Source: a virus. Taken from it: 28,949 nt of DNA. The notes under the pieces are model-generated. The model was not told the origin of the DNA, made no database searches, and was given only the letters and a program-made list of their open reading frames with translations. Each line of letters begins with the position of its first letter. Positions within the stretch are counted from its first letter, which is position 1. The stretch is from IMG/VR virus record IMGVR_UViG_3300030333_006780, positions 1 through 28,949 of that record. One strand, given 5' to 3'. Shown here piece by piece: positions 1 to 25,555 of this stretch. The position numbers and the translations under genes are program-made.

Positions 1-2
1 TA

Positions 3-3026: not shown

Positions 3027-3196
3027 AGGACACATTAAGAGTTTTATCTGCATACCCTGAAATAGGTATGGGTACTAGTTTTTTCTCAACATTAATAGGC
3101 TTTTTAAAGGTTTTAAACCCTATTCTAACGTTTGTATCATTATCGATTGGAATAATAGTTGGATTAATGACCTTATATGCTAAAATTAAAGGTTGA
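3023..3196 (+). CDS. Holin-like small membrane protein (57 aa)
   Basis: 57 aa, starting inside the previous stop (ATGA). The N-terminus is short and charged. It is followed by TSFFSTLIGFLKVLNPILTF and a strongly hydrophobic segment SLSIGIIVGLMTLYA, and ends in the basic tail KIKG. Two closely spaced hydrophobic segments with a basic C-terminus and a length under 70 aa are typical of small phage holins. Its place beside other tiny membrane proteins, downstream of a tail fibre gene, agrees. AGG at 3012-3015 serves as SD with about 7 nt spacing. No endolysin is visible in the window, so the lysis assignment rests on topology and context only. Confidence 0.6.
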   Translation: MKDTLRVLSAYPEIGMGTSFFSTLIGFLKVLNPILTFVSLSIGIIVGLMTLYAKIKG

Positions 3197-3971: not shown

Positions 3972-4754
3972 ATGAAGAAGAAAAAAGGTGGAGTGCTAAA
4001 GCGTGCTTTAGTAACTCCAGATAAGCATGCACCTATACATGATAAAGCTGCTATCAATGTTGTATGCAAAGCAATAGAACTGGTCAAACCTGATATATAT
4101 GTCGATTTAGGTGACCTAGGAGAGTTCTCAAGTGTTTCTCACTGGCAGTGGAAAAGAAAAAAGAAACCACCTTTGGAATATATAATGCCAAAGGTAGATA
4201 AAGACATAGAAGGTGTAAATGAGTTACTTGATATAATAGATAAATCTTTGGATAAAGTAGGTTGTAAAGAAAGACACATTTGTGCAGGGAATCATGATGA
4301 ATGGTTAGATAGATTCGTAGAAGAGCATCCTTATCTAAACTATCGCTTTAAAGACGTATGTCGTTTTAAAGAGCGAGGATACAAATATCACCCACCTGGG
4401 AAGTATCTAAAAATAGGAAAGCTCTATTTTTATCACGGGCATCACTTTGGTGGTCAATACCACACAGCGAATCATCTAAGGAAACTAGGTGCCAATATAA
4501 TGTATGGTCATCATCATTCCCTGCAACAAGATAGTGTGACATACATGGATGGACCTAAGTCTGCTTGGTCGCTAGGATGTTTAAAAGATATGAGTGCAGA
4601 GAAAAATCAATGGTTAGGTGGAAGACAACATAAATGGGCTCATGCATTTGCAATAGTAGATTACTACAGAGGTGGTAGGTTTACAGTAGATATAGTTCAA
4701 ATAATAGACGGAAGGACAACAGTATGGGGAGAGTTGCTAGATGGGAACAAGTAA
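3972..4754 (+). CDS. Calcineurin-like metallophosphoesterase
   Basis: 260 aa. It carries the full metallophosphoesterase motif series: D17-x-H19 (PDKH), G47-D48 (GDLGE), G106-N-H-D109 (AGNHDEW), H155-G-H157 (YFYHGHHF) and G179-H-H-H182 (MYGHHH). These residues bind two metal ions and support hydrolysis of phosphodiester or phosphomonoester bonds. The canonical second Asp of the GDxxD loop is replaced (GDLGEF). The SD is TAGGAG at 3958-3963, 9 nt from ATG. Phage members of this superfamily include DNA/RNA phosphatases and SbcD-like nucleases; this one lacks the SbcD cap and length. It lies between the lysis and tail genes, not in a replication module, so the substrate is unclear. Confidence 0.88.
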   Translation: MKKKKGGVLKRALVTPDKHAPIHDKAAINVVCKAIELVKPDIYVDLGDLGEFSSVSHWQWKRKKKPPLEYIMPKVDKDIEGVNELLDIIDKSLDKVGCKERHICAGNHDEWLDRFVEEHPYLNYRFKDVCRFKERGYKYHPPGKYLKIGKLYFYHGHHFGGQYHTANHLRKLGANIMYGHHHSLQQDSVTYMDGPKSAWSLGCLKDMSAEKNQWLGGRQHKWAHAFAIVDYYRGGRFTVDIVQIIDGRTTVWGELLDGNK

Positions 4755-4820: not shown

Positions 4821-7800
4821 ATGCCAAGAAGTTTAAAAGAAATAAAGAAATTTAATGTTGGTACAATTACAGGTTTATCTGAAAGTGATATACCTGAAGA
4901 TTCGCCTGCGTTTTCTTTAAATATTGATTCAAATAAAGAAGCTGGAATTTTAGATGCTATTAATACTGATAAGATAGTAGCTGCTGTTGGTGCTAGTTTA
5001 TGTAGATTTCAAGAAAATGTAAGCTGGAATTCAGAAGAGCTTAATACCGTAGATTCTGCAACATCTAATTTAAGCAGAGTTAGAATATCTAATGTATCTA
5101 TATTTAAAAATAAAAATGAAGGAACTTTGAAATTTGTAGGTACAAAAGGAAGAGAAGAGAATCTTCAAGCTTTTAATATAGAGCCATTCCTTGAAAGGGT
5201 TTCTTTACAAACATTTCAACCAGCGGCTACAATAGGAGTTAATGATACTTTCATTCCGTTTGCAACTGATAGTTCTGAGATGTCAGGGAGTACTGGTGCT
5301 TTTAATGATATATCTGGAGTAAAGGCAGGGGATTACTTATCTTTTTCAGAATCTGGTACAAATTTCTACGGAAGACAAAATAGTGAAATACTTCAAGTAA
5401 CTAGTGTTAATGTTGTTGAAAATAGGATATATATTAAAAGAAAATGCTTTGGCACTTTATCTCAAGAATTAAACTCTTCTAAAGAATATGAATTTTATTT
5501 AAATAGAATTACAATAGGTGATTCTCAAAGCCGAACATTAGCAGGTACTTGTTTTATTGGTGGATGGAGTAGATATTCTGGAAATCATATTAATGGTAAT
5601 TCTTCTTATATTTCTAAGTTTGATACAACAAATTCAAGATATGCGGGTAGAATTGATACTTCAGCTGCAAGTAGGACTGTCAATTATTCTGGAAAAACTA
5701 TAACTTTTAATAATATGGCAGAAGCAAATGATTCACCTTCTCATTTAAGATTTTATGAAGGAGATATTATAACTGTATATGAAAATGCATCTACAAATAA
5801 TAATGGATATAGAGGTAAAATAATAAAAAAAGAAGGTAGTACAAATGTAACCCTAACATTAGATACTGCTTTACCTGAAAATGAAGATGAATCAAGCAAC
5901 ATAGTTTATTTAGAAGCTAATTTATTAAAAAATCATACATTTCAACATGCTCAAAGCAATGGAACGCAAAGTCCAGGAGCATCTAATCAGTACAAAGTAA
6001 ATGATTGGTTGCATAAAGCTTGTTCATGGGGAGCTTCTGGTAGCCCTAGTGGAGGAGACCCAGAAAGAACATTTAATGTATACGCAAATCAAACTAGTAA
6101 TAAGGTATCTGTAGTAAGCTCAGGAGGATATTGGGATGAAGCTCAACCAAGAGAGTCTAATTTAGGTTCTGAACTAGCTGTAAATGGAGATATGGAAACA
6201 TTTCCAACACTAGGTACAACTAATGATACTTTTACAGATGATTCTGCTCAAGGTGACCAACAAATAGTTATGGTTACAAGTAGTGATGAAGCTAATAATG
6301 GTAGTAAGAGTGCAAAATGTACACTTGATGGAGATACTACAGGTTGGGTTAGTTACAATAGAGATGATTATGTAGTAGGTAAGACTTATAAAGCTGAAGT
6401 ATATATGAGAAAAGGCAGTGGTCAGGCATTCACTTCTTTCCAAATGTTTGCTGCTAATGCTTTAAGAACTGAAACATTATCTGGAGAAATACTAACCCCA
6501 ACAGAAACATTCAAAAAAGCTTCTATTATTTTTAGAGCTACTCATACAACTATGATGATAAATATGAAATTTATCGGAACTGATGGTCATTTCAGCTATA
6601 TAGATGATTTTAGTATAAAGGAATATGGAGATGCATCTGCTTTATATTACCCTTTTGAATCTAATGATAAATACTTGAGAATAACTTCTGAGTACAAAAA
6701 GACAACACTTTATTTAGAAAATGATATTTCAACAACTTCAACTTATTTAGATATTAAATTTGTTGGAACTGCTGCTAATAAGAATGCACCAGAAATATTA
6801 GCTAAAGGAGATATAATAAGCCTTGAATCAAGCACATTTGATGCCAATACTGAATATATGAGAGTTGTATCAATAGAAGATAATGTTGTTAGAGTTGTTA
6901 GAAAAACTTTTGGAACTAGTCCTGTGGCAATATCAGCTAGTCTTAGTGCTAGGATATATAAAAATAGAAATCACCATATAACTCAAGATGTTGAGTCAAA
7001 ATATTTAAAAGCTGGACAAAGATATAAATTAACGTTTTATGCAAAAACTTCAGATGCAAATTCTTCTGGAGCTATAGCATTAAATATTAATGGTGGTTAT
7101 TTTTCTTCAGATGGAAAATGGACACCTAAAAGCGTCAATAAACAAGAAGGATATATTAGCAGAAAGAATGACGTATCGGCTTCTGAAACTAGATGGATTC
7201 CATTTGTATCACTAGAAAAGCCAGATGGAGATACTATTATTAATGATAATGGATTAGATAGTTATTGGAGAAAATTCTGTCTTTATTTTGAATTACCTAA
7301 AGACAAATTATATACAGATTTAAAATTAGAAGTGGCTAGTAGGGGAAAAGAAGGCACTTCAATAGATTTAGACTTGTTTAATTTATGTGAAGATACTCCT
7401 GTCTATGCATATAGAGAAGGTTTAGATAAATTAAGTTCAATAGGAAAAATAGATAATAAAGGGAATAAAGATATTATTGCTTATAATTCAATAACAAATA
7501 AATTACTAGCATTAAAATCTTTTTCTATTGATAGAGACCCTTATTCTCAGAATAGAGAAGATTTTATAGAACATTCTCCTTTTGCAACTAAAGAATTAAA
7601 TGTATCTAAAAATAGTTTACCAATGATTCCTAATAATAGGGAACTTCATGTTGGATTTGGAGGTAATGAATCTAGCACATCTCCTCAATGGATTGGATAT
7701 ACAAATAGGAAAATATTTGGAAGAGACTTAACAAATGTATTATATCAAGATGAAGATACAGTCCATACCTATGATAAAATAACAGCAAACTCACTAAGTA

Positions 7801-10800
7801 AAGTTTGTGTAGCTGGGGAACATGAATATGTAAAAGCATATTGGAATAATTCTGGTGGAACAATTACTAATAATGCCGTTGGAACTGATGATTTAACAGA
7901 TAATACTTTAAGGATTCACCATACAGCACATTCTATGGAAATAGGAAATAATATTATTATAAGAAAATGGGGAGATACTCCCAATGAATGGGATGGTTCA
8001 GGTTTATGGATAGTTAAACTTATAGCGACTGATTATTTTGATTGTATAAGATATACTACTAAAGACCCTGACCCAGCAGAAGAAGGAATTATAGGAACTT
8101 CTAGTACTTCTTATAGTGCTCCTAATGTTACTGTGAATTGTGATGCAAGTCATAATTTATTAACAGGAGATAATGTTCTTATATTTGGAGGAACAGCTGA
8201 TGCAGATGTAAATACTACTCATAGTGTAACCGTAACAGATGCTGATACATACACTTTTTCTGATGCTGATTCATCAAGTATAGGGAATGATACTAACGTA
8301 GTAACTGTTAAAGAATTTAGAATAAACTATAGACCTTATCATTATTATGGATGTAAGGTTGGAGAGCCTTATATCTATAGAATATGGCCTGAAACTAGGA
8401 TTGATGAATCTTTAGCTGTAGATAATGAATTTCCAGCTGGATTAATAGAAAGAAGTCAACCTTTAAGTATTAGATTAAACTCTATTTGTACTTATTATGC
8501 TAAGGAATCTACAGACAATACCCCAGCTTTAAATGGTGGTAGAATATATGCATTAGGAGCTTATGGTACAAATTCAGGTGTTAATGAAGTTCTTGTAGTA
8601 GATGTTCAATTAAAATTTAATGAATGGAAGAAATTTACATTACCAGAATATGGTCCATCTACTTTAGCTTTCAAAGCTTATAAATGGAGTAATGAAAGAA
8701 CAGATGGGGATATAGAACTAAATAAAGGTGTATTTGGTGGTACTGCAGATGAGAGTACCCCCTCTATTAGATATGCGGGAACACCAACTGATATAATTGA
8801 AACAAAAGGAACTAAAGAAACTTTTGATAGCGATGTTGTTGAAGGTCAATGGCATGTAAATACTCCTTATGATTTTGATACTAGATTATGGGTTTTATGT
8901 AGTCCTGAAGGTGATAATAAATTTTCAGATGGAGATAGGTTTCTATTTTGTGGTCTTACTACTGAAGAAAACACAGCAGGAGGATATAGTATATATTTAG
9001 GCGACAGAACTCCTCCTACAACTTCTATTGTTAGTGACGAGTTTGATACAGGCAGAGGGAGTGAAGAATTTTTAGAAGGTGGGCCTGGGGCATCTCCGTG
9101 GTGGGATAATCCTTTATGGAACAGATATGCGGTTAGCGATTGGGAAGTTGGAGAAGAATATTTCGATGAGGATGGCAATCTTATTCCACCATCTACAATT
9201 ACTTATGAAAAATGGAAAGGAAAATATGGACCTACTGAGCTTGATGCAAAAGATATAGCAGACGCAGAAGCTACAGTCTGGGGTAGTTTGGAATTTGGAA
9301 GTGGAACTCAACTTGATTTAGAAAGCATGTTAAATCTTGGCGCTAATATTGGTTGGGATTGCGGACTATCGTCTGCAAGTGGCGATTTTTCAGCTATAGA
9401 GGGAGATAGAGTTGCTTTAGAAATACCTAGATTTGGTTTATTTGCTATGGCTGATAATGATGGTGATGGAGTAATTGATGGTACTGGAATACCCGTATGC
9501 AACAAGACAAGTCTTCCTAGTCAAATAACTACTGGAGGGACAGCTAAATGGATGGGTCCATATGGAGAAAAACATAGAAGGGTAACATCTCATTGTGTTG
9601 GCGTTATAGGAGGTTCTAATAAATCTTGGTGGAGAAGTTGGGGTAGAATATGTAAAGTTCCAGATGATGGAGAATATCATCCAGGCAATACTAATAAAAT
9701 AGCTAATTGGGGAGTATCTCCAGAAAATATTGAAAGTGGTGGTTGGAGTATGGATGCTCCTGAAAAAATAAATATGGATAAATTTATAGCCGTATGTCCA
9801 GATATACATTTTGGAGATATGCCTATGCCTCATAGCTTTGAAATAAATAATACTGGGAATGTACCTAGAAATTATACTGATACTGGCACAGGAAACTATA
9901 CAAAGGTAAAATTAAAAGCAACTCATTCTGAGCTTGGAATTAGTCAAGATACATCTTCATTACAAGCTGGAGACCCAATCTTTATAGCAGATTCATCTAC
10001 ACAAGCAGACCAATCTAATGCTAAGTATGGTAGTACTTATATAGTTAGAATATTATCTAATGATGAAATTCTTGTTCCAAGAGCTTTTGATGCAGATATA
10101 AATGATAAAATATTCTATGTTATGACTCCATATCTAAGAACAGTTAGTATGGTTTCTGCTTCAAGTGTTTATGGAACGAGAGGATGTTTGCCTGAGTTTG
10201 CTGGAGTAACTGGTTTTGATGGAGCTGGTGACCAGCATTATCATTGGGCTCACGATTTAAACGACCCTGCTAATGGAAATTGCTTTTGGGATAGAAAAAC
10301 AATAGCTAATGGAAATGATTTTTTATTAATGGGTCACGAAGAGAAAAAAGGTAAAGTAACTTATCCAGGCAATTTTGCAAAAACATTTTATCAGACTCCA
10401 ACTAGATGGGGTAGCGATGGAACTGGTAATTACAAAACAATACTTCCAGGAAGTATATTCAAATTATCAAGATTGAACTATAAAGCTGGTGTAATGATGA
10501 GACCTTTTGATATATCTGACAATACATTTCAAGATTTAGTTATTGGTAATGGAGTTAGCGTTGATATGCCTTGTTTTCCAGATGCAGTTCATAGATGGAA
10601 AGATGGAAGCAAAATACACTCTTCTATAGGAGATACAAGTGAAGATAATAAATTTTCAAGTAAATTATTTATAGCTTCTGATGTAGATGATGAAAGTTCA
10701 AAGCTATATATTATAGACCTTGATTTTCAATACCCTGGAGAAGGTTATTCAATGCCTTTAAGTTCAAGAACTTCTACTTTAGCAGAGGATTTAAATAATG

Positions 10801-13616
10801 GATTTCCAGAAGATGTTATGTTGGCTGGAACTATAAATGATTATACTCTAAATGAATATAATACTGGAGCAACTACTGATTACCCTTCAAGAGATATACA
10901 CCCTTCTGTAATTATACCTGGAAGACAAGAACTTCAGGGGGATATAATGACAAGTTCAGATACAGACAGATGGAACTTAATTACTGCAGTATCATCTCAT
11001 TGGAGAGATAAAAATGCGTTTACAGGTTTATGTATATCTATAATGGGGCAAAAAGGAACAATTCAAACAAGGCAAATAGTTTATAGCAATAGTCATCAAG
11101 CTGGAGGCTCTCCTGCTGCAACTGATGAAATTCAATTATTTTTACATGCTCCTCTTGGGAATGATGTTAGACAAAATAGCGAATATTGGATATGGTCTCC
11201 AGAACAAGTATGCACATCACCTGTTAGATTGTACAAACAAAAAGCATTACCTCACGGGTTAACACATCCTGATAGTACAACTAGCGCAAATGCTTTAGCT
11301 TGCAAATATGGTCCTTTTGGTACAATACCTGCTTATAGAGACAAGGAAGCTGCTAGACAAAGCAACTTAATAACATCAATGTCTGAGTCTGGTTATGTTG
11401 CTACTATAACATGTTTAAGGCCACATGGATTATCAACAAATGATGAGGTTGAAATAGTATCTAAATCTTCAGGGAGTATTAATTATGAAGATTATAATTA
11501 TCCTCAATCAGATTCATCTTACAATGGTATTTATAAAATAACTGTAACTGGAGCAAAGACATTTACATATACTCTTAATCCTGCATTAACATATACAAGT
11601 CCAAGTGTTAGTGGGGATTTTAATGCAGTAGCTGGGTGGAATGCACATGATTCATCAACCTCTGCAAGTAATCCTTTAAAAATAAGCTCAACTACGCCTA
11701 TAATTAAATCTATGTTTGGAGGATTAAATTTAAGGGCATTAAGGCATTATTCAGCACAAACAGCTGACCCTGCGATTGATGCTGGAGAAGGCGGTACTGG
11801 GGAAGCTAGAGTTGTTACTACAGCTGCTCATTTATTAGGAGATGGAGAACAAGTAACAATAGATGGCACTAGCTCAATTTATGATTCGACTTACTATACA
11901 AAAGATTCTACAGGTAGTCAATTTGATATAATGAGCACTGAGTCATCTGATGATGATGGTGATAGTGTAAAAATATATACAAATAAATGGGAATTACTTG
12001 TTGCAGAGACAACAGGAGATGGAAGAATCGGAATGGTATCAGCTGGAACTACAAGTTGGGATAAAGGAAATAGAGACGATAATATGATACGTTATGACTT
12101 CTTAACTGCTGATGAAGAAGATATATATTTGCAAGTTATAGAAGATAATTTAAATGCAGAGCCAGATTCAGTTGCAAATCAAGATGGCGACTATTTTATG
12201 GCTAATAATGAATATACATATAAAGTTTCATTTATATATGATGGGTATCAAGAAGGTCCTATAAGCTTAACTCAATGGAATTTTAAAAGTCAAAACTCAT
12301 ATTCAAGACTTAATCTTGTTATTAAATTATTGCAACATAGTTATAGGCTGAGCCATGTATGTGTATATAGAAGAGATTTTTCTGCTGATTCATTTAAGCT
12401 TGTTCAAGAAATTTCAACAAAATCTGGTTGGGTAAGAGACGGGGAAATTTATTCAAGAGCAATATCAGATGATGGGAGTCTTGGTGCTACTTATGAATCA
12501 AGAACATTAATGCCTGAGACATTAGATACAGTTAAAATAAAATACGGATTATCAGCAGAAATTGATGGATATTTATTTGTAGGAGATGTTTATCATAGTA
12601 GGGTTGACAATGCATCTAATCAAATATTTAGGTCAATGCCAGGACAGTTTAGCTTGTTTAATTATATATACGATTATCAAGTATTAAAATCTAGACCAAC
12701 TGCTTTAGCTAATTTTAATGGAAGATTATATGCTTTTGATAAGTCTAATATTTATAAAATAAATCCTCAAAGTTTAAGTATAGAAGACATATTTGAAGGA
12801 ATTGGATGTTTATCATCTGATAGTTTTACAGTAACTGAATTTGGTATGTTTTTCGCAGATAAGAATGGAGCTTATTTCCACAATGGTCAAACTCCAATAA
12901 AAATATCTGAGCAAATATATCAAAGTGGAGATTTGGATAATGATTTCTATGCTAATTTCCCTAATTCAACAGACAATATTAGAGATTTTTCATGGTTAAA
13001 TATAATGAACCAACCTAATCAAAGCTTGTATATCATTTATGATGCAAAATCTCATAGTGTTTTATTCTTTTTCGATTTTATTACAAAGAAAACTACAGAG
13101 TCTGTTGGAGTTGTATATGAGCAAACTTTAAAAAGAACTTATGCTTGGTCATATAATGTATCTAGAAAAAGATGGGATTTATGGGAGGTTTGTTCTGGTT
13201 CTTTAATTGGTAAACCATTCTTAGAGAAGAATGGAAAAGTATGTATAACTATTGATGATACTATACATGAATATAGAGGAGGCTCTTCAAAAAGAGATTA
13301 TACTTGGGTTAGTAAAAAACTTACAATGGGAGAAGATTCTATAATTAAAGTATTTAATAAAATTAAACTGAATGGAATAACAGAAGACTTAAATAAAGGC
13401 GGGAATTATATAGAGAGTGCTAATAGATTGTTGCTATTAACAAGTGAAGGTATTCCAACTTCTACATATTCTACACCATCACTTAGTTCTTCTTATCAAT
13501 CAGATTATAAATTAAGTGGAACAAAGAAAGGTAATTGGCTTCAAATTAAGCTTGATAGTATGACAGAACCTTTAGATTCTATAGGTATAGTATATAGAAG
13601 AAAGAGCACTAAGTAA
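4821..13616 (+). CDS. Giant tail protein: stabilization-like ends with inserted lectin-like modules
   Basis: 2931 aa, SD AAGGAG at 4811-4816. The N-terminus (FNVGTITGLSESDIPEDSPA, then LNID) resembles the start of phage stabilization/tail-tube-associated proteins. The C-terminal part (about 2400-2931) has the beta-propeller-like phrases GYLFVGD, NGRLYAFDKSNIYKI, FGMFFADKNGAYFHNG and a final SIGIVYRRKS, typical of the same group. Between them lie inserted modules. Residues 451-606 look like a CBM4_9-type jelly roll (NGDME, then GKTYKAEVYMRKGSG, then YIDDFSIKE). A second jelly roll appears split between about 367-440 and 720-860. Tail-type small domains occur at about 145-230 and 650-715, and an EF-hand-like loop DNDGDGVID at 1545-1553. 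Likely role: the tail hub/stabilizer carrying glycan-binding decorations. The module borders are by eye. Confidence 0.72.
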   Translation: MPRSLKEIKKFNVGTITGLSESDIPEDSPAFSLNIDSNKEAGILDAINTDKIVAAVGASLCRFQENVSWNSEELNTVDSATSNLSRVRISNVSIFKNKNEGTLKFVGTKGREENLQAFNIEPFLERVSLQTFQPAATIGVNDTFIPFATDSSEMSGSTGAFNDISGVKAGDYLSFSESGTNFYGRQNSEILQVTSVNVVENRIYIKRKCFGTLSQELNSSKEYEFYLNRITIGDSQSRTLAGTCFIGGWSRYSGNHINGNSSYISKFDTTNSRYAGRIDTSAASRTVNYSGKTITFNNMAEANDSPSHLRFYEGDIITVYENASTNNNGYRGKIIKKEGSTNVTLTLDTALPENEDESSNIVYLEANLLKNHTFQHAQSNGTQSPGASNQYKVNDWLHKACSWGASGSPSGGDPERTFNVYANQTSNKVSVVSSGGYWDEAQPRESNLGSELAVNGDMETFPTLGTTNDTFTDDSAQGDQQIVMVTSSDEANNGSKSAKCTLDGDTTGWVSYNRDDYVVGKTYKAEVYMRKGSGQAFTSFQMFAANALRTETLSGEILTPTETFKKASIIFRATHTTMMINMKFIGTDGHFSYIDDFSIKEYGDASALYYPFESNDKYLRITSEYKKTTLYLENDISTTSTYLDIKFVGTAANKNAPEILAKGDIISLESSTFDANTEYMRVVSIEDNVVRVVRKTFGTSPVAISASLSARIYKNRNHHITQDVESKYLKAGQRYKLTFYAKTSDANSSGAIALNINGGYFSSDGKWTPKSVNKQEGYISRKNDVSASETRWIPFVSLEKPDGDTIINDNGLDSYWRKFCLYFELPKDKLYTDLKLEVASRGKEGTSIDLDLFNLCEDTPVYAYREGLDKLSSIGKIDNKGNKDIIAYNSITNKLLALKSFSIDRDPYSQNREDFIEHSPFATKELNVSKNSLPMIPNNRELHVGFGGNESSTSPQWIGYTNRKIFGRDLTNVLYQDEDTVHTYDKITANSLSKVCVAGEHEYVKAYWNNSGGTITNNAVGTDDLTDNTLRIHHTAHSMEIGNNIIIRKWGDTPNEWDGSGLWIVKLIATDYFDCIRYTTKDPDPAEEGIIGTSSTSYSAPNVTVNCDASHNLLTGDNVLIFGGTADADVNTTHSVTVTDADTYTFSDADSSSIGNDTNVVTVKEFRINYRPYHYYGCKVGEPYIYRIWPETRIDESLAVDNEFPAGLIERSQPLSIRLNSICTYYAKESTDNTPALNGGRIYALGAYGTNSGVNEVLVVDVQLKFNEWKKFTLPEYGPSTLAFKAYKWSNERTDGDIELNKGVFGGTADESTPSIRYAGTPTDIIETKGTKETFDSDVVEGQWHVNTPYDFDTRLWVLCSPEGDNKFSDGDRFLFCGLTTEENTAGGYSIYLGDRTPPTTSIVSDEFDTGRGSEEFLEGGPGASPWWDNPLWNRYAVSDWEVGEEYFDEDGNLIPPSTITYEKWKGKYGPTELDAKDIADAEATVWGSLEFGSGTQLDLESMLNLGANIGWDCGLSSASGDFSAIEGDRVALEIPRFGLFAMADNDGDGVIDGTGIPVCNKTSLPSQITTGGTAKWMGPYGEKHRRVTSHCVGVIGGSNKSWWRSWGRICKVPDDGEYHPGNTNKIANWGVSPENIESGGWSMDAPEKINMDKFIAVCPDIHFGDMPMPHSFEINNTGNVPRNYTDTGTGNYTKVKLKATHSELGISQDTSSLQAGDPIFIADSSTQADQSNAKYGSTYIVRILSNDEILVPRAFDADINDKIFYVMTPYLRTVSMVSASSVYGTRGCLPEFAGVTGFDGAGDQHYHWAHDLNDPANGNCFWDRKTIANGNDFLLMGHEEKKGKVTYPGNFAKTFYQTPTRWGSDGTGNYKTILPGSIFKLSRLNYKAGVMMRPFDISDNTFQDLVIGNGVSVDMPCFPDAVHRWKDGSKIHSSIGDTSEDNKFSSKLFIASDVDDESSKLYIIDLDFQYPGEGYSMPLSSRTSTLAEDLNNGFPEDVMLAGTINDYTLNEYNTGATTDYPSRDIHPSVIIPGRQELQGDIMTSSDTDRWNLITAVSSHWRDKNAFTGLCISIMGQKGTIQTRQIVYSNSHQAGGSPAATDEIQLFLHAPLGNDVRQNSEYWIWSPEQVCTSPVRLYKQKALPHGLTHPDSTTSANALACKYGPFGTIPAYRDKEAARQSNLITSMSESGYVATITCLRPHGLSTNDEVEIVSKSSGSINYEDYNYPQSDSSYNGIYKITVTGAKTFTYTLNPALTYTSPSVSGDFNAVAGWNAHDSSTSASNPLKISSTTPIIKSMFGGLNLRALRHYSAQTADPAIDAGEGGTGEARVVTTAAHLLGDGEQVTIDGTSSIYDSTYYTKDSTGSQFDIMSTESSDDDGDSVKIYTNKWELLVAETTGDGRIGMVSAGTTSWDKGNRDDNMIRYDFLTADEEDIYLQVIEDNLNAEPDSVANQDGDYFMANNEYTYKVSFIYDGYQEGPISLTQWNFKSQNSYSRLNLVIKLLQHSYRLSHVCVYRRDFSADSFKLVQEISTKSGWVRDGEIYSRAISDDGSLGATYESRTLMPETLDTVKIKYGLSAEIDGYLFVGDVYHSRVDNASNQIFRSMPGQFSLFNYIYDYQVLKSRPTALANFNGRLYAFDKSNIYKINPQSLSIEDIFEGIGCLSSDSFTVTEFGMFFADKNGAYFHNGQTPIKISEQIYQSGDLDNDFYANFPNSTDNIRDFSWLNIMNQPNQSLYIIYDAKSHSVLFFFDFITKKTTESVGVVYEQTLKRTYAWSYNVSRKRWDLWEVCSGSLIGKPFLEKNGKVCITIDDTIHEYRGGSSKRDYTWVSKKLTMGEDSIIKVFNKIKLNGITEDLNKGGNYIESANRLLLLTSEGIPTSTYSTPSLSSSYQSDYKLSGTKKGNWLQIKLDSMTEPLDSIGIVYRRKSTK

Positions 13617-15976: not shown

Positions 15977-18900
15977 ATGGCTCAACAACAACAACTCGTT
16001 GAACAACCTCAGGAACAACAATGGGTTCCCCAATTTAATCGAGAACAAACTCGTAATTACATAAAACTATATAATAAGACTCCAGGAAGGTTTAATGAGG
16101 AGTTATTAAATAGAATTAGGCAACATGCTCAATATCATAATGTTCCTTTTTATGAAGGGGATTTTTCTTTATTAGAGGCCGTTAAACAAGCTGGTGCAGG
16201 ATTTGTAGAAGGTTTTACAACTCTTCATATAGCTGACCATCCAGATAATGAATGGGAAGCAGTATTTAGAAGTGCTGGTCATTTAGCTGGATTTGCTCCA
16301 GGAATAATGTCTGCTCCTCTACGTAAAATAGGAGTACTTGCTGGTTCTAAAACATTAGCAGAAGCTTCTAGGATGCTTCAAGGTGCTAAAGGTCTTCCAT
16401 TATTAGCTGCTACAAAAATTACTAAAAGAGCTAAACCATATGCTACTGCTATTAGAGATTCATCAACGATGAAAAGAGCAGCTGAAACAAATTCAGTATT
16501 AAAATATTTAAGAGGCAAGGAAGCTTCAGATATAATAGAAGGAGCATTTAATCTTGGTACTGCTAGTGCAATATCTACTTGGCAACAAGGAGTAGATGGA
16601 ATGATAGATGGCTTTTTTAGTGGAGCTGTTGCAGGTGGAGTATTTAAAGGTATTGGTAATAGAATTGCCATGAAAGACCCTAAAGCAGAGATGTATGCAA
16701 GAGGGTTAGCAGGTTCCTTGTTTATGGGTCTACCAGCTACTATTCGTGGTGCAACTATGCCTGAACAGATATATGAATATTTAATGGGAGCTTACTTTGG
16801 AGGTTCTGAAAAGTCTTGGAAACAAGTAGAAAGTGTTAAATTTTTACAAAAAGGTATTAAAAAATTAGATAAAGACCCTGAATGGGGTAAAAGATTTGAC
16901 CCTTCTGAAGTAGAGGGATTTTATAAGCTAGAACCACAGGTTCAAGAGTTAACAAAAACTAAATATGAACAATATGCTAAGCAGAGAGTAGACCAAGCAG
17001 GAGCAGGAGCATATGCTATTCTTGAAGAATTTGGTCAATTGGATAGAATTCCAGGAGAAACTCCTTCAAAGAAACTGAAGAACTTAGGGCAACAAGTAAT
17101 TAATGCTAGAGCTGACAGAGAGTTAGATATAAAAGCTACTACTAAGAAAGCTCTTGAAAAATCTATTGGTAAAAAAGGTTTATTCGTGGTATCCCCAGGT
17201 AAATCTGAAATGCAAAGCTATATTGAAAGCCTTGCCTCTAAAAAAGGTATATCTGTTGTTAAAATGATGCAACCAGAAGATAAACCTTCTGTTAAAACAA
17301 GGCCAAATGTATATGAAATTATTCTTAATAAAAAGGATGTAAAGACTGGTGATAGAATACTTAGAAAAGCTATTAGAAATGTTAAACAAATAGAAATAAA
17401 TACAACAGGGCAAACTACTTTAGATGAAGGTAAGTTTACAGATTATATATTTAACGCTTTAAATAGAGATGCTAGAAGTGTTTTTAGGTCTGACTCTGTT
17501 ATAGCTATAGACAATCTCAATATGAATACTATGAAAACTACTAAAGGTATTTCTAGATTACCTGTTCAGATGGGAGTGGATTTAAAAAAACCTACTTATC
17601 TTTATGACAAGTCTTTTCAAAGATGGTTTAAATATGACACTAAAACTGAAGCGTTTAAACCCCTTGAGGTTGGAGAAACTCCAGAGTTAACAACAGCTCC
17701 TTCTTTTTTCGGTAGAAAGACATTAGAAGGGAATGAAAAATTAGCTATAAAATCATTATTTGATACAAAAGAATTTAAATTTAAATCAGAAAAACTAAAA
17801 CCAAATAAAGAAAAGTTATTAGAAGAGACTGAAGAAAAGAGACTATCACAAGAAAAAGCTGAAAATGAGCTAGATACAAGTGAAAGAACATCAGGATTAG
17901 AGGGTAGTAGTATATCAGCACAAGTTGAATCAAAACTAAGACCTCATTCTAAGGAATTTAAATCTTTAGATGGAAAGGAATTAAAGTTAGAAGGCAGGGA
18001 ATTAGATAATAAACTATTAGACGTTGAAACTTCTATTGTTAAAAATGCTTTAAATTATATAACTGGCACCAAGCAAACTAAGTCAAGAGAGCTTATTAGA
18101 GATATTGAAGATGAAGTTGATATGCAACTTCCAAATTCTTTTAAATTGCAAATTAGAAAATATTTAGCTGGGTTAAATCAAAATAGACCTAAAAGATTCT
18201 TAAAAGTTTCTGATTCAGAAATAGATATAATTTCATTAGAATCCCCTTATACATATGGCAATGAAGTAAGAAATCAAAAACAACCTCCTACTGCTATAGA
18301 GGAATATTATGTAGAAAAAACAAAAAAGCCCTCTAAAGAGCCTGTTTTGATTGAATTAGATGCATTAACACATAAAGAAGTAGATTATAAAATATCTAAC
18401 TTTGATTATGTTGCAGCAAAGGTTGAAGCAGCTCAAATACAAGAGCGATTTGGTTTAATGCGAGGTGAATTTTCAGAAATCATGGAACAAAAATCTAAAT
18501 TAAAAACAAAAATGATAACAGATGCTGTTAAAGCTATGAATAAGAAAGGTTATCATTTGTATGGAGGTTCTGGAGATAAAGATAAATTGCAATTTATTAA
18601 ATATCATCCTGACTATAAGAAAGTTAATCTTGTTGCAAAAGGCTTTAATTCTAAAACAATGCCTGAAAGTATTTATAAACATGCAAAAAAAGAATATGGA
18701 TTAAGTAAAAAAGAACATGACGATATGATGCGTTCTATAGTAGCTTATGGAGAAGCGTTAAATGAAGTTCCTATAGAAACTATGGCTAAAAATAAAGGAG
18801 ACTTTATACAAAATGCTGTAAATGAAAATAAAAGAGCTCAAATATGGATGACGAATGGATTATCTGGAGATAAAGAGTTTATAAAAGACCCTAGTCAACA

Positions 18901-21900
18901 TGGTGAAAATCTTCATTTGTCTAAAAATAATAACTTTAAAGCCGTTATGATAGATGTAGAAGGTAATTCGAAAGACTTGTTGAATGCATTAAATGTTAAA
19001 TTACCTCAAGGAACAGATGGAGCTATATTAGGAACAACCGCTTCTATCAACGCTATGAATAAAGATGCTGGATTACCCCCTACTGGAAGCAACAAGTCAT
19101 TTTTAATTCAACGGAATCCAGATGGTACTATATTAGGTAAGTATATGATTGTTGCTGTTCCTCCCAAGTATTCTAAGATGATGGAATCTTATAAAAATAC
19201 TAATCCAGAACATGGAGCTGGTATTAACTTTTTGATGTATAAAAGTGGAATTAAACAAAAAGGATTGAAAAAAGCTGGAGATTATGAAGTTAAGAATGGA
19301 AAATTAGAGCTTATAGGAAATCCAGATGTATTTGAAATCAATCCATCATCATTTAAATACTCACAATCAGTATTAAATGATAATGCTATGATTGGATTAA
19401 GTGAAGTTGGTAATAGAGCTATTGGAGTAACTTTGATTAAACAGCTTATGACAAGTCAACATCCCGATATGTTTTCATCTGTACCTAAAGAAGTTATATC
19501 TGATATGTATAACGAAATAATGCAAAGAGCTCATGACGGAGACTCTATTGTAAATAATAAAGTAATGGATTTTTTAAACAATCCTAGTCCAAAATTAAAA
19601 AAAGAAATACTTGATAATTTTGAAGATATAGGTCTTCCTACTATATATTCTGCTTTAAAATCGAGAACTAAAGAGGGTAGAGAATTAGCTAAAGATTTAA
19701 TGCAAAAGATAGTAAAGATTCATAAAGATAGTGTTGAAATGCTTAGACAATCTGGAGAAATATCTGGAGTTGAAGCTCAAGAACAATTACAAGAAGCTTT
19801 ACAATTTACTTCAGCTGCTGATAAGTCATTAAAACTTATATCTTCAATTGAAGGTGCATATCCATTATATTTTGATAAAGGAGTTAAAAGATATGTTAAT
19901 CAAGCATTAAGAAGATTTGTAGGTCAAAGAGTACTTACGCCTAAAGTTAAAAATGCAGGTGTATTCAGAATGAGACCTTATGATAAGTTTATGCAAATAG
20001 AGTTTCCAGAGTTTAATAATGATGCTTTAGCAATGAAGAAATATGGAGTAAAATCTGATGAAATATTTAGATTAGGAGATGTAGCAAGAGACATGCCTTT
20101 ATTTACAACTATTAAAGGATATGAAAAAACAACTTTAGGTAAATTATGGGATGCTACAAAAGGCAAGAATGGACCAAGAACTAGTAATTTTTATAATAAA
20201 AATAAAGATAAAATTGAAGATGTTTTAGAAGCGTTAAGTGTAAGGGTTCCTCAAGACTCACCTTCAGGTGCTCAGGTTTTAAAATTTGTAGGCTTTACTG
20301 GAGTTAGAAACCATGAAGTATTGCTTCACAGCAGAGCTATGGAAGCTCAAGGTGGAGCTGACCTTGATGGTGATGAATCATTTATATATTTTGGTGGAAG
20401 AAATAAAGATGGCTCAGGTCAAGGTATGAAAAAAGAATGGAAGGATATGTTTAAAGCTCAGAAAAAAGAGTTTCATACTGAAGATGGAAAATCTATTAAA
20501 GATGCTAAAGACCAATATAGAGATAGAATTACACTTACTCCTGAAATAGCTAAAGAACAAGGATTAGACCCTAAATTTATACAAGAAGTCAATAGTAATT
20601 TTTATGCTAAATTTTCACCTGTTGTAAGAGCATTTACAGGTAGAAGAACAGCACAAAGTAGAGGTCAAATGGGACCCGTTGTTACTATGACAGCAAATTA
20701 TAGGCAAGCTTGGTCTTCTATGCTTAATTCAGCAAATGGAAAAGATTTAGTAATGAAAACAGTAGTTGATTCTAATTTCTTTTCAAAGCATATATCAACA
20801 GCAAAGCTTTTATCAGGAAATGTTGTTAGAAAATTATACTTAGTTCCAAGAAATAAAAGCTCAGAACAAAGAGATTTAACTAAAGCTTTAATAAATTTTA
20901 CTGCTGACCCTGCAAATGAAACTGGATTAATAGGCATAGGAGAAATGTCAAAACTTCTAAAAAAGGCTTATTTTAAAGAGAAAGTTATGTTTGAGTATAA
21001 AGGTCGAGAGTTTGAAGATACTCCCAAAAACAGGGCAAAATACGGCTTATCTGGCAAAGGGCTTAATGAAATGCTTAAAGTTTCTCATGAAATGGGCTTA
21101 AATGGGTCTTCGAAGTATAATTTTAATAGATACGACTTGGTTAGAAATATTAACTCTGCATTCTTTGGTAAAAATAGAGATGATAAAAGGATGTGGACTA
21201 ATTATGAAATTCAAGAAATGATTCAAGACATCAACAAGTATAGTACTTCAGAGCATACTACTGCTATGTTTAAATTTGCAAATACTTTAAAAGGTTTTAA
21301 TTTTCAAATATCTCCATTCGACTGGGTTAATGCTAGGTCATATAGAGATAGAATGTCTGAGTTTAATCAAGGTCTTAAAGATTCTTCTTTCCCTGAAAGT
21401 AAATTTAAAGATTTATTAAGCAGAACTAAAATAAGAGAAGGTAATAGCCCTCAAGTAGATTTTATTACATTAAATGATTTACATATAGAGAAAAATCAAA
21501 GAGCTTTAGCTACTGCGGAAATGAATAATAAAGGTTCTATTATTCAATTATTGAAAAATGCAACTAAAGGAAGACAGCAGAAAGTAAGCCCTGAATATAT
21601 AGCTCAAATAGAAAAACTTATTGAGACTAAAGGGCCTTTAAATGCAATTAGAAAAATATTAAATGAAGCTGAAGATTATTTCTCTAATGCTCTTCATAAT
21701 ATGTCAACTTTAGATGTTATTGTTGACATATATAATAAAGCTGAAGCATCTGGTAATAAAATATCTAACGCTGAAATGGATAGATTGGTTAAAAGAGCTG
21801 ATGAATTAAAACAAGATTATGCAGAAAAAGCAAAAGCAAGAAACAGACCTGATGTTCCAATTGAACCTGAGTCTATATCAGATTTAAAAAGTCAAACAGT

Positions 21901-24900
21901 CTTTGAAAAATTAAAAAGAAACGTTGCTAAAAGACAAGGAATAAGACTTTCTAAGAAAGTTAAAAAAGATTTACCAACTTTAAAAACTACTAGATTACAA
22001 GATTTAGGAAGTATAGACGCAAGAATTAAAAAGTTTAAAGATAGTCTTGAAAATACTTACTCTAAAGACATGTTTGATGCTTTAATTATAGGCTCTTTAA
22101 GACCTGCTACTCCTCAAAAATTGCAAAAATTTAAACAATTTAGAAGAAAACGTAATCAACTTGGTTTAGAAAAAGATATAGTACAATCAGTAGTTAAAGA
22201 AGGTTCAAGAACAAATCAAAGTCAATTATATTTAGATTCTAAAGAGATAGCTCCAAAGAGTATTATAAACTTTTTCAAAGTTAAGAATAAGTATTTCCTT
22301 GATGCCTATAAGCCCTATAAAAAACAAGATTTTGAAAATCTAGTTAAGAAAACTGAAAAAGAAATGGAAATAGTAGAACCTAATACTTCTATTGTTGAAG
22401 AAGGTAATTTTATTGAAAAATCACAGGGATTTAAAGGTATTAAAAAGGGTGATTTAGATGCAAAGCAATCTCAAGTTACCGCTGAATTAATAAATAATAT
22501 TAAACTATATAATGCTCAAAATAAAGACATGAATGCATTATTGGCTGGTATCTATACAAGAATAGACCCTGAAAATTTACCTAAAAGCTTAAATCAAATG
22601 ACAATAAGAGATTTTGAACTTATAAATAATTGGTTCAGATTTATTAAACAAGGAACACTTGAACAAAAGCTTAATAGAGCTTTAACTGATTTGGAAAAAG
22701 CTAAATTAAGTAAGATGGATTGGTATGAATTTCCTTTAACTACTAATAGAAAAATGATGAAATTTGATATGGTATTTCTACCTAAACAAGGATACTTTAG
22801 AGGTAAAGTAGGTGAAAAAGCTAAAGCTGGTATGGTTTTAAGACCCACTTATTATGGAGAAATCTTACAAGATACTATTGGAAAAGTACAAGATGCAGCT
22901 CAAGGTGAAGCTTTTAAACTGTCCAAGAAATTTACTGATGAAATTCAATATTTAAAACAAACTAATGTTGCTGAAGATGGCAATGCAATATGGAGAATGG
23001 CAGTTAGAAAACTTGAACTACCTCAAGGTTATAATATGGAACCTGCTAATAATATATATGATAAATTATTTAAAGAATCTAAGATTAATAATAATTGGAA
23101 AGAAATAAAAGACAAGCAATATATAGTTGATTTCGGTAAAGGTAAAGAAAGAACTAAAGTTAAAGGTAGTGATTTAATTGATATAACTATGAATAAGATT
23201 GATTCTTTCTTTAAAGGAATTCATCCTATTATAGCTGGTAAAGATATAACCTTAAAAGATGGAACTAAAGCTAAAGCCTGGGAAAAATATAGAAGAGGTT
23301 GGTATGATGAAGCTGAAACTCAACCTATATTAAACTATAAAGAATTTATAAAAGATGTTACTAAATCTATGGCTAAGGGCGAAGAGTTTACTATGGATTT
23401 AGGTATAGATGGTATGCGTCATATGGCAAGAGCTATGACTATTGACTTAATTCCAGCAAGTGAATACATAGGAACTGGTAAACATAATTTTGAAAAGATA
23501 ATGAGTGCTAAAAAATACTTTAAATTAAGTCGTAAAGAGCAAAAAGATTGGAGACCTCATAAAGAAATTATAGCTGAAGCTTATAAAGATGTTATTATTG
23601 AGAATACTGGCGAAAGAAAAGGTTATTTCCCTCATTATTATCCAGAAACTAGTAAAATTAAAAAGATGAGAGATAATGAATTAGATATTTTAATGAAAGA
23701 TACTAAAATGACTCGTCAAGAAAAAGAGTCTAAGTTAGCTGAAATTATGTTTAAATATAAAACAAGAACAGGTGATTGGGATTATGGTGATTATGCAGAT
23801 TGGGCTCAAATGAGAGATACTATTCTTCCTGGAGCTATTAAACAAGTTGAGCAGAAAGTTAGTCAAGCTAGAGAAAAAACTAAAATTAAAACTATTGTTC
23901 CTAAAATGGCAAACCAGTTTAAAAGAGAAAATCATATTGGAGGTTGGGATATAGACCCTGTTAATGTACAAACTTATGTAAATAATGTTACCAATACTTA
24001 TTTTAGACAGCTTGGTAATATATTAAATACTGTTACCCTTCATACTATGAAACAAAGATTAAGTAAAAAATGGGTTAAAGGTACTGAAGCTCAAAAAGAA
24101 GATGGTAGAAAATTAGCAAATGGATGGGTTCAATTTTGGAAACAATATGTTTCTGAGGCTATGGGTAATCCCACTATTGTATCTAAAGAATTATATAATG
24201 ACCCTAATATGAAAATACAAGGCACTTTATATGGAGCATTTGCAGATAATTTAATGGCTAAAAAAGTAAATAAATTAAGAGAAAAGCTTAAAACAAGGAA
24301 AGATGCAAAAATAGAAAAATATTTTGCAGATTATTCTGAAACTACAGGTAAAGATGCTTATGATATGAGAAGATGGTCACAAGTTGAAGCTCAATGGGAA
24401 CTTGCTACTTTAATGACACATCCCAAAACTCCTATTAATAATGTATTTGGAGGTACTTTACATACAGCTTCTTCAGCTAGTTTTACTAACCTTAGAAAAG
24501 CTAGAGATATTGAGTATTTGCAAAGAATTAATCCAAAATGGACAAGTCGTCAAAAAGTAACTGATTTTATGGAAGAAATAGGTGTTGGTCCAGAGTTACT
24601 TGCTCATGAGTATGGTTTGAATAAGCAATTTAAAGAAGGTGCTGCTCTTGAATTTACAAGAGAATTAGCTAAGAAATTTGGAGGAAGTAAAGATGCATCA
24701 TTGAAAGATGTTTTGTCTTTAAAAAATAAGCATGGTGTGAGTAGAAAAATTATGGATAAAGCTGTTCTTTTCATGTCTAAACCTGAAAAAGCTTTAAGAA
24801 GAGATTCTTTTATGGCTCATTATATTAAAGCCTGGGAGCGTTTAAATGGTGCAGTAACTAATCCTTACGACCCTATACTTATTGAAATAGGCAAGCAAGG

Positions 24901-25555
24901 CGTAAAAGCTACTCAATTCTTATACTCTTCTGCTTATAGAATGCCTTTTGCTCGTTCAGGATTAGGCAAAATAATGTCTAGATTCCAATTGTGGTCATGG
25001 AATGCTATAAGATTTAGAAAAGATTTATTCCATGATGCTAAAATTTATGGATTTGATAAAAATTCTGATGCTGTTAATAAATTTAAAAGAACTATGGCTA
25101 TAGATTCCTTTGTATTTGCATTATCTTCTATATTTATGTATTCATTATTCGACCAAATACTACCAGCTCCTTGGAATTATTTACAAGATACAGCACAATG
25201 GATGTTTGGTGATGAAAAAGAGCGAGAAAGAGCATTCTTTGGGACTTATCCTACTGCTATAGCTCCATTGGCTATGGTTACTCCTCCTATTGCAAGGCTT
25301 CCTATATCGGTTATTAGGGAATTTGCTGATGATGATTATAATAAATTAGCTGATTACTATATTTGGACTATGTTTCCATTTGGAAGAATGTTAAAAGATG
25401 TTGCTCATCCAGAGCAATCTATATTTAACAATCCAATGAGGATTCCTGAAAAAGTATTTGGATTTCCAATGACAGGATTAGCTAAAGAAGCTAAAAGAAT
25501 TAAAGAATCTACTGAAAAAACTCCAACTCCAGGCTTAAAACAAACAAGCTATTAA
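15977..25555 (+). CDS. Giant virion protein with two-barrel single-chain RNA polymerase core
   Basis: 3192 aa. The central region has the ordered signatures of two-DPBB single-chain RNA polymerases (QDE-1, YonO and crAss-like vRNAP). D1014-G1015 (GTDGAILG) is followed by K1055 (LGKYMIVAV) and K1093 (YKSGIKQKG), matching the lysine-bearing first barrel. R1423-V-P1425 is followed about 35 residues later by GGAD1462-L-D-G-D1466, the catalytic metal loop (DxDGD; beta' has NADFDGD, RDR enzymes GSDLDGD). GRRTAQSRGQMGP at 1555-1567 follows. The N-terminal ~1000 and C-terminal ~1600 residues are helical, with hydrophobic stretches (3042-3062 FVFALSSIFMYSLF) like ejected internal proteins. Inferred role: packaged in the head, ejected with DNA, transcribing early genes. 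Residue matches are seen; packaging is inference. It could alternatively act only late, or be catalytically defective. Confidence 0.82.
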   Translation: MAQQQQLVEQPQEQQWVPQFNREQTRNYIKLYNKTPGRFNEELLNRIRQHAQYHNVPFYEGDFSLLEAVKQAGAGFVEGFTTLHIADHPDNEWEAVFRSAGHLAGFAPGIMSAPLRKIGVLAGSKTLAEASRMLQGAKGLPLLAATKITKRAKPYATAIRDSSTMKRAAETNSVLKYLRGKEASDIIEGAFNLGTASAISTWQQGVDGMIDGFFSGAVAGGVFKGIGNRIAMKDPKAEMYARGLAGSLFMGLPATIRGATMPEQIYEYLMGAYFGGSEKSWKQVESVKFLQKGIKKLDKDPEWGKRFDPSEVEGFYKLEPQVQELTKTKYEQYAKQRVDQAGAGAYAILEEFGQLDRIPGETPSKKLKNLGQQVINARADRELDIKATTKKALEKSIGKKGLFVVSPGKSEMQSYIESLASKKGISVVKMMQPEDKPSVKTRPNVYEIILNKKDVKTGDRILRKAIRNVKQIEINTTGQTTLDEGKFTDYIFNALNRDARSVFRSDSVIAIDNLNMNTMKTTKGISRLPVQMGVDLKKPTYLYDKSFQRWFKYDTKTEAFKPLEVGETPELTTAPSFFGRKTLEGNEKLAIKSLFDTKEFKFKSEKLKPNKEKLLEETEEKRLSQEKAENELDTSERTSGLEGSSISAQVESKLRPHSKEFKSLDGKELKLEGRELDNKLLDVETSIVKNALNYITGTKQTKSRELIRDIEDEVDMQLPNSFKLQIRKYLAGLNQNRPKRFLKVSDSEIDIISLESPYTYGNEVRNQKQPPTAIEEYYVEKTKKPSKEPVLIELDALTHKEVDYKISNFDYVAAKVEAAQIQERFGLMRGEFSEIMEQKSKLKTKMITDAVKAMNKKGYHLYGGSGDKDKLQFIKYHPDYKKVNLVAKGFNSKTMPESIYKHAKKEYGLSKKEHDDMMRSIVAYGEALNEVPIETMAKNKGDFIQNAVNENKRAQIWMTNGLSGDKEFIKDPSQHGENLHLSKNNNFKAVMIDVEGNSKDLLNALNVKLPQGTDGAILGTTASINAMNKDAGLPPTGSNKSFLIQRNPDGTILGKYMIVAVPPKYSKMMESYKNTNPEHGAGINFLMYKSGIKQKGLKKAGDYEVKNGKLELIGNPDVFEINPSSFKYSQSVLNDNAMIGLSEVGNRAIGVTLIKQLMTSQHPDMFSSVPKEVISDMYNEIMQRAHDGDSIVNNKVMDFLNNPSPKLKKEILDNFEDIGLPTIYSALKSRTKEGRELAKDLMQKIVKIHKDSVEMLRQSGEISGVEAQEQLQEALQFTSAADKSLKLISSIEGAYPLYFDKGVKRYVNQALRRFVGQRVLTPKVKNAGVFRMRPYDKFMQIEFPEFNNDALAMKKYGVKSDEIFRLGDVARDMPLFTTIKGYEKTTLGKLWDATKGKNGPRTSNFYNKNKDKIEDVLEALSVRVPQDSPSGAQVLKFVGFTGVRNHEVLLHSRAMEAQGGADLDGDESFIYFGGRNKDGSGQGMKKEWKDMFKAQKKEFHTEDGKSIKDAKDQYRDRITLTPEIAKEQGLDPKFIQEVNSNFYAKFSPVVRAFTGRRTAQSRGQMGPVVTMTANYRQAWSSMLNSANGKDLVMKTVVDSNFFSKHISTAKLLSGNVVRKLYLVPRNKSSEQRDLTKALINFTADPANETGLIGIGEMSKLLKKAYFKEKVMFEYKGREFEDTPKNRAKYGLSGKGLNEMLKVSHEMGLNGSSKYNFNRYDLVRNINSAFFGKNRDDKRMWTNYEIQEMIQDINKYSTSEHTTAMFKFANTLKGFNFQISPFDWVNARSYRDRMSEFNQGLKDSSFPESKFKDLLSRTKIREGNSPQVDFITLNDLHIEKNQRALATAEMNNKGSIIQLLKNATKGRQQKVSPEYIAQIEKLIETKGPLNAIRKILNEAEDYFSNALHNMSTLDVIVDIYNKAEASGNKISNAEMDRLVKRADELKQDYAEKAKARNRPDVPIEPESISDLKSQTVFEKLKRNVAKRQGIRLSKKVKKDLPTLKTTRLQDLGSIDARIKKFKDSLENTYSKDMFDALIIGSLRPATPQKLQKFKQFRRKRNQLGLEKDIVQSVVKEGSRTNQSQLYLDSKEIAPKSIINFFKVKNKYFLDAYKPYKKQDFENLVKKTEKEMEIVEPNTSIVEEGNFIEKSQGFKGIKKGDLDAKQSQVTAELINNIKLYNAQNKDMNALLAGIYTRIDPENLPKSLNQMTIRDFELINNWFRFIKQGTLEQKLNRALTDLEKAKLSKMDWYEFPLTTNRKMMKFDMVFLPKQGYFRGKVGEKAKAGMVLRPTYYGEILQDTIGKVQDAAQGEAFKLSKKFTDEIQYLKQTNVAEDGNAIWRMAVRKLELPQGYNMEPANNIYDKLFKESKINNNWKEIKDKQYIVDFGKGKERTKVKGSDLIDITMNKIDSFFKGIHPIIAGKDITLKDGTKAKAWEKYRRGWYDEAETQPILNYKEFIKDVTKSMAKGEEFTMDLGIDGMRHMARAMTIDLIPASEYIGTGKHNFEKIMSAKKYFKLSRKEQKDWRPHKEIIAEAYKDVIIENTGERKGYFPHYYPETSKIKKMRDNELDILMKDTKMTRQEKESKLAEIMFKYKTRTGDWDYGDYADWAQMRDTILPGAIKQVEQKVSQAREKTKIKTIVPKMANQFKRENHIGGWDIDPVNVQTYVNNVTNTYFRQLGNILNTVTLHTMKQRLSKKWVKGTEAQKEDGRKLANGWVQFWKQYVSEAMGNPTIVSKELYNDPNMKIQGTLYGAFADNLMAKKVNKLREKLKTRKDAKIEKYFADYSETTGKDAYDMRRWSQVEAQWELATLMTHPKTPINNVFGGTLHTASSASFTNLRKARDIEYLQRINPKWTSRQKVTDFMEEIGVGPELLAHEYGLNKQFKEGAALEFTRELAKKFGGSKDASLKDVLSLKNKHGVSRKIMDKAVLFMSKPEKALRRDSFMAHYIKAWERLNGAVTNPYDPILIEIGKQGVKATQFLYSSAYRMPFARSGLGKIMSRFQLWSWNAIRFRKDLFHDAKIYGFDKNSDAVNKFKRTMAIDSFVFALSSIFMYSLFDQILPAPWNYLQDTAQWMFGDEKERERAFFGTYPTAIAPLAMVTPPIARLPISVIREFADDDYNKLADYYIWTMFPFGRMLKDVAHPEQSIFNNPMRIPEKVFGFPMTGLAKEAKRIKESTEKTPTPGLKQTSY

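Follow-up and report, generated by a model that had tools for sequence, protein, structure and literature searches.

The virion RNA polymerase (RNAP) of phage N4 is a giant podoviral protein that is injected and transcribes early genes. Its fold is T7-type and is unrelated to double-psi barrels. The closest described systems to the locus studied here are single-chain RNAPs with two double-psi barrels: the virion enzyme of the crAss-like phage phi14:2 (PMC7886860), gp96 and gp64 of P23-45 (PMC10770324), YonO of SPbeta (PMC5467207), and eukaryotic QDE-1. We analyzed positions 1 to 28949 (the window, meaning this whole stretch of DNA) of a 52,711-base virus record, IMG/VR IMGVR_UViG_3300030333_006780. 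The window encodes a giant protein of 3,192 amino acids. Residues ~861 to 2060 of this protein very probably form a single-chain RNAP core with two double-psi barrels, most likely packaged, injected, and used to transcribe early genes. The gene and its polymerase features are listed below, with the evidence for each.

15977..25555, plus strand: gene for the giant protein (3192 amino acids) with the RNAP core; open reading frame, and a non-redundant set of 70 long relatives from viral contigs
18557..22156, plus strand: two-barrel RNAP region as modeled, residues 861 to 2060; AlphaFold2, with 6vr4 as the top Foldseek match
18830..18835, plus strand: invariant K952-R953, counterpart of K893-R894 of the phi14:2 virion RNAP; conservation and profile diagonal
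18989..19471, plus strand: lysine-bearing barrel, approximately residues 1005 to 1165, limits set by eye; strand pattern of the model and hhalign to the crAss-like profile
19016..19021, plus strand: invariant D1014-G1015; script and conservation
19094..19096, plus strand: invariant K1040; conservation
19139..19141, plus strand: invariant K1055; script and conservation
19253..19255, plus strand: invariant K1093, paired by hhalign with crAss K1065; script, conservation, and hhalign
19439..19444, plus strand: invariant K1155-Q1156; conservation
19955..20416, plus strand: DxDGD-bearing barrel, approximately residues 1327 to 1480, limits set by eye; strand pattern of the model and hhalign
20243..20251, plus strand: RVP element, residues 1423 to 1425, R and P invariant; script, conservation, and hhalign
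20360..20374, plus strand: predicted metal-binding DLDGD loop, D1462 to D1466, three Asp invariant; script and conservation
20618..20725, plus strand: tentative candidate bridge helix, residues 1548 to 1583, in which R1551 and R1562 are conserved; a pair of adjoining helices in the model, and conservation

A first scan found relatives of the giant protein in 3 viral contigs; alignments of its conserved parts yielded 32 and 167 loci in viral metagenome contigs, the latter number being that of the contigs that encode its C terminus. We computed conservation on 70 non-redundant full-length relatives and repeated the calculation on a 65-sequence alignment (A5). Nine residues (D1014, G1015, K1055, K1093, R1423, P1425, D1462, D1464, and D1466) are 100% conserved in the 70 relatives, and N951-K952-R953, K1040, Q1094, G1096, K1155-Q1156, S1430, G1439-F1440, H1451, and G1460-A1461 are also invariant. 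An earlier annotation made from the letters of the window (the sequence-only reading) had placed DG at 1014-1015, K1055, K1093, and RVP at 1423-1425, and a script found each at that position; K1040 and K1155-Q1156 were absent from its list. The string GGADLDGDE, which it had assigned to 1461 to 1467, is present at 1459 to 1467, with DLDGD at 1462 to 1466. The interval of 18900 to 20700, where the same reading had located the polymerase, is smaller than the modeled region.

Position 1465 of the loop is G, A, or I in 58, 4, and 3 of 65 relatives, respectively, and the three aspartates are constant. The loop of the crAss-like enzyme is DFDID, with Ile where the window protein has G1465. A variable glycine among constant aspartates is what metal binding by the three aspartates would predict. 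That 7 of the 65 relatives have Ala or Ile in place of the glycine might also indicate a dead, degenerate polymerase fold, retained as a structural or DNA-gripping domain. We consider loss of activity very unlikely: none of the 65 to 70 relatives departs from the three aspartates, RxP, or the lysines, and the crAss-like enzyme, with Ile at the same position, is reported to be active.

We modeled residues 861 to 2060 with AlphaFold2 from 65 sequences (mean predicted local distance difference test score [pLDDT], 87.9; predicted template modeling score [pTM], 0.85). A Foldseek search of the PDB with this model ranked the phi14:2 crAss-like virion RNAP first (6vr4; E value, 7.6e-7; probability, 1.00) and QDE-1 second (5fsw; E value, 6.6e-5; probability, 1.00). 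Single-chain RNAPs of Thermus phages followed at ranks 3 and 4 (E values of about 0.02), with multisubunit RNAPs beyond. The first two were the only matches below an E value of 0.001 among those listed, and all 50 of the 50 matches listed were RNAPs. The comparison by AlphaFold and Foldseek that the sequence-only reading had called for put the phi14:2 enzyme and QDE-1 at the top, and its proposal of a two-barrel RNAP core is supported by the model, the Foldseek matches to 6vr4 and QDE-1, and the crAss-like profile comparison described below. The same list bears on whether the protein could instead be a two-barrel DNA polymerase resembling PolD DP2. PolD has the same two-barrel active-site architecture (PMC4996933), but none of the 50 PDB matches listed is a DNA polymerase, and we regard a DNA polymerase as highly improbable. 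In BFVD, a database of predicted viral structures, the two best matches were unnamed viral proteins (41% and 21% identity), followed by more unnamed proteins and crAss-like phage proteins (E values of 1e-12 to 1e-5).

We compared the window family with a crAss-like profile made from phi14:2 and 80 loci with relatives of the phi14:2 RNAP (77 sequences aligned). When whole regions were aligned with hhalign, the best alignment was exactly the segment from RxP to DxDxD, with 59 gapless columns and a score of 30.4, compared with 16.6 ± 2.0 (maximum, 21.1) in 100 column shuffles. The R-to-D spacing is 39 in both families. The DxDxD barrel by itself gave a P value of 1.2e-4, and the lysine barrel, tested separately, scored 24.2 (highest value in shuffles, 17.6), with K1093 paired with crAss K1065. 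Among ungapped diagonals of 45 columns between the two profiles, the best had an offset that agrees with the correspondence of K952-R953 and K893-R894; the others were noisy. Invariant residues occur in the same order in both families (KR, D, K, K, K, Q, RxP, S, DxDxD). A subsequence test of this collinearity gave 7, 10, and 14 matches at three spacing tolerances, compared with null maxima of 6, 9, and 10 (300 trials), so that the total exceeded the null at all three; in this test the lysines were paired otherwise than by equal spacing. The spacings K1040-K1055 (15) and K1055-K1093 (38) equal those of K1012-K1027 and K1027-K1065 in the crAss-like enzymes, an equality that was noticed post hoc. 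What computation establishes is a related fold, a set of invariant residues, their collinear order in the crAss-like enzyme, and the position of the gene. In the proposed enzyme, one barrel would contribute the invariant lysines K1040, K1055, and K1093, and perhaps K1155, and the other barrel would carry a Mg-binding DxD[G/A/I]D loop after Arg-x-Pro. The catalytic pair may lie anywhere among these four lysines, since K1040 and K1155 are invariant too; hhalign and the subsequence test pair the lysines differently, and the profile alignment links K1093 to crAss K1065.

The giant gene shares its strand with the terminase, portal, and capsid genes, and replication genes lie on the opposite strand; we refer to these as the putative late and early arcs, labels suggested by gene layout. 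By analogy with phi14:2 (PMC7886860) and P23-45 (PMC10770324), the locus is best explained by a virion polymerase that is injected and transcribes early genes. We favor this explanation because the giant protein to which the polymerase is fused is encoded in the structural arc, because the C-terminal module of that protein is conserved, and because the record has no second protein with RxP followed by DxDxD: among frames of at least 100 amino acids, the giant protein is the sole one with RxP...DxD[GIA]D. The giant protein would most likely be packaged in the virion, its polymerase would be injected along with the phage DNA, and it would transcribe the early (minus-strand) arc before, or in place of, host RNAP. 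We infer catalysis, packaging, injection, and early-gene specificity alike. A two-barrel RNAP might instead act late in the infected cell without being injected, the giant fusion then being purely structural. Packaging is a prediction here, and P23-45 does have a second, non-virion two-barrel RNAP (PMC10770324). However, fusion to a structural-arc protein of ~3200 amino acids is the arrangement of the injected phi14:2 and P23-45 enzymes, and some relatives carry effector-like inserted domains, as injected polyvalent proteins do (PMC5512222). We therefore judge late action to be unlikely.

Several results weigh against an injected two-barrel RNAP. Global template modeling scores (TM-scores) to solved structures are low (0.30/0.18 to 6vr4); because of these scores, and because only two Foldseek matches pass an E value of 0.001, we limit the claim to the catalytic core and do not extend it to overall similarity. 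A reversed crAss-like profile, a harsher control than column shuffling, scores 26.0, at a different place. The full-length hhalign probability is 1.2% (P value, 0.042), and evidence at the sequence level is weak away from the barrels. The lysine pairing depends on the method, and hhalign opens a gap of 9 residues between K1055 and K1093. Repeated phage promoter words in the early arc were not above chance; GTGCTNATAT had a few occurrences, at the chance level. DxDGD alone is weak evidence, since the adjacent 2931-amino-acid fiber-like protein has two such strings without the remaining pattern. One could suppose from this that DxDGD and RxP arose here by coincidence, as in calcium-binding or fiber proteins. 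In the giant protein, DxDGD occurs once, compared with 0.04 occurrences expected from composition, and lies 39 residues after RVP; the pattern is raised above chance because it is conserved across relatives. Conservation, the structure model, and the fold match all contradict coincidence, to which we give almost no credence.

Searches of Pfam, PHROGs, and PDB sequences with the giant protein and 15 relatives returned no RNAP family. Two PDB profile matches, to a huntingtin fusion and to keratin, were set aside; each aligned to the query's helical tail. The polymerase region had no tblastn match in INPHARED (50,697 phage records), whereas the phi14:2 RNAP as a query matched 106 phage records. 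The window polymerase is thus not detectable by sequence search as a member of the crAss-like virion RNAP family. We conclude that it represents a new family within a known kind of enzyme, the single-chain two-barrel RNAPs, and is in no annotation searched; it may have been noticed earlier, perhaps among the 23 RNAP families of PMC10770324. Pfam, PHROGs, and PDB sequence searches are blind to the family, so annotation by those libraries misses it.

Some relatives have insertions of 50 to 174 residues in the polymerase region, at recurring sites after 940/983, 1076, 1109, 1501/1511, and 1605 (positions read from alignment to the window protein, which itself has no inserts). Enzyme-like inserts were seen in the giant genes of L004, L005, L023, L027, L030, L033, L046, L054, L085, and L091. 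By Pfam and PHROGs, they include SLOG/cpYpsA in L027 and L046 (E values, 4e-13 and 2e-12), DUF7831 in L085 (3e-30), and phrog_9995 in L030 (6e-39); matches to GNAT (L023 and L033) and DUF4326 (L091) were weaker and fell under curated cutoffs. Inserts with HExxH in L005, L040, L054, and L055 are metallopeptidase-like by eye only. Effector-like inserted domains have been described for injected polyvalent proteins (PMC5512222). It is conceivable, and we put it forward tentatively, that the phage group with P22-like portals has a separate two-barrel RNAP branch at the center of an injected polyvalent megaprotein, with polymerase loops that dock exchangeable effector-like domains (metallopeptidase-like, GNAT, SLOG/YpsA, DUF7831, and DUF4326). 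If so, one molecule would deliver both transcription and host takeover.

Outside the polymerase, the giant protein has the following parts.

15977..16906, plus strand: glycine-rich conserved N-terminal module, residues 1 to 310, no role assigned; conservation profile of 70 relatives
16907..18346, plus strand: weakly conserved stretch, residues 311 to 790; conservation profile of 70 relatives
24374..25552, plus strand: C-terminal module, residues 2800 to 3192, the best conserved part; conservation and relatives

The C-terminal module has a hydrophobic segment at 3040 to 3058; such a segment occurs in 68 of the 84 long copies, a set that includes some duplicates. A model of the module (pLDDT, 71.6) had no significant fold match in the PDB. 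Neither the C terminus of the giant protein nor the 2931-amino-acid protein had a tblastn match in INPHARED, and a search of GTDB genomes with the C-terminal profile found no relative and hence no host or prophage.

The record ends (L003:8624-8712) with 89 bases that match its first 89 (window 1-89) at all but one position, so that it is probably a complete ~52.6-kb genome, cut within a tail fiber gene that spans its ends. The plus strand carries, in order, the terminase (phrog_38), a P22-like portal (PF16510 [P22_portal]; E value, 2.6e-74), an SU10-like capsid protein (PF17236 [SU10_MCP]; E value, 5.1e-30), tail genes, the 2931-amino-acid fiber-like protein, three small genes, and the 3192-amino-acid protein. 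The minus-strand replication arc, tail to tail with the giant gene, encodes an HNH endonuclease, a primase-helicase, Sak4, ThiF, and a JAB-like protein. Relatives of HNH, primase-helicase, Sak4, and ThiF occur in 102, 94, 59, and 51 fetched loci around the giant gene (the loci overlap, so the counts are not independent). A related portal was found in 438 viral contigs, and phage records yielded remote relatives only; this portal and the giant protein occur together in at least 4 contigs. The head genes are not crAss-type, and the genome is ~52.6 kb, compared with ~100 kb for Crassvirales. Judged by its head genes, the carrier phage is not crAss-like.

The fiber-like protein (window 4821-13616, plus strand) has no Pfam or PHROGs match, and its DxDGD strings look like chance. 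A metallophosphoesterase gene (window 3972-4754, plus strand; phrog_221; E value, 5e-29) lies among the tail genes. On the minus strand of the early arc, a ThiF/E1-like gene (PF00899; E value, 1e-20) overlaps a weak JAB/MPN-like gene (L002:3991-5602, genome 31990-33601). Relatives of the two were present in 51 and 27 fetched loci, respectively; the pair suggests a phage ubiquitin-like module, perhaps including an adjoining gene of 521 amino acids. Where the two arcs diverge, there is a noncoding block (L002:10254-10423, genome 38253-38422); ~50 nucleotides of it are near-identical in one relative (record G001), and a 64-nucleotide match at 84 to 86% occurs in two others (G002 and G003). This block may be a promoter or origin. 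Sigma-70-like sites occurred at the frequency found in shuffled sequence.

These data add an uncultured group to the crAss-like and Thermus phages as a source of single-chain two-barrel RNAPs in giant phage proteins; a large group of uncultivated, non-crAss-like phages probably introduces a transcription enzyme of its own into the cell. The locus offers another carrier architecture for asking how two-barrel enzymes pass through the virion. Its sequences form a new family to be placed relative to the crAss-like virion RNAPs and eukaryotic QDE-1. Among known systems, the phi14:2 virion RNAP (6vr4; 2180 amino acids; Phi14:2_gp077, KC821624) is most alike: it has both barrels in one chain, a distance of 39 residues from RxP to DxDxD, and collinear invariant Lys, Arg, and Asp residues, in a very large structural protein that adjoins other giant structural proteins. 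It differs in sequence (11% identity in the structural alignment; loop DFDID rather than, mainly, DLDGD) and in its carrier, a crAss-like phage of ~100 kb, whereas the window phage has ~52.6 kb, a P22-like portal, and an SU10-like capsid protein. Unlike the phi14:2 RNAP, the window polymerase is flanked on both sides by large conserved modules in one 3192-amino-acid chain. QDE-1 (5fsw), the second-best fold match, has 8% identity and belongs to the eukaryotic RNA-dependent RNA polymerases (RDR) of RNA interference. YonO of SPbeta, compared by its published description only, is likewise a single-chain two-barrel RNAP, from a prophage (PMC5467207). The non-virion RNAP gp64 of P23-45 (PMC10770324) is of a type whose structures were weaker fold matches (E values of about 0.02). 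P23-45 gp96, a tape-measure-fused virion RNAP, resembles the window protein in having a two-barrel RNAP in a giant virion protein (a putative one in the window phage) and in its loop, DFDGD (PMC10770324); its polymerase is N-terminal and clamp-less, whereas that of the window protein is central, and P23-45 infects Thermus and has a very long tail. Of the gp96 fragments, the shortest one assayed at first lacked activity (PMC10770324). The N4 virion RNAP is a functional parallel to the proposed role and not a member of the two-barrel class.

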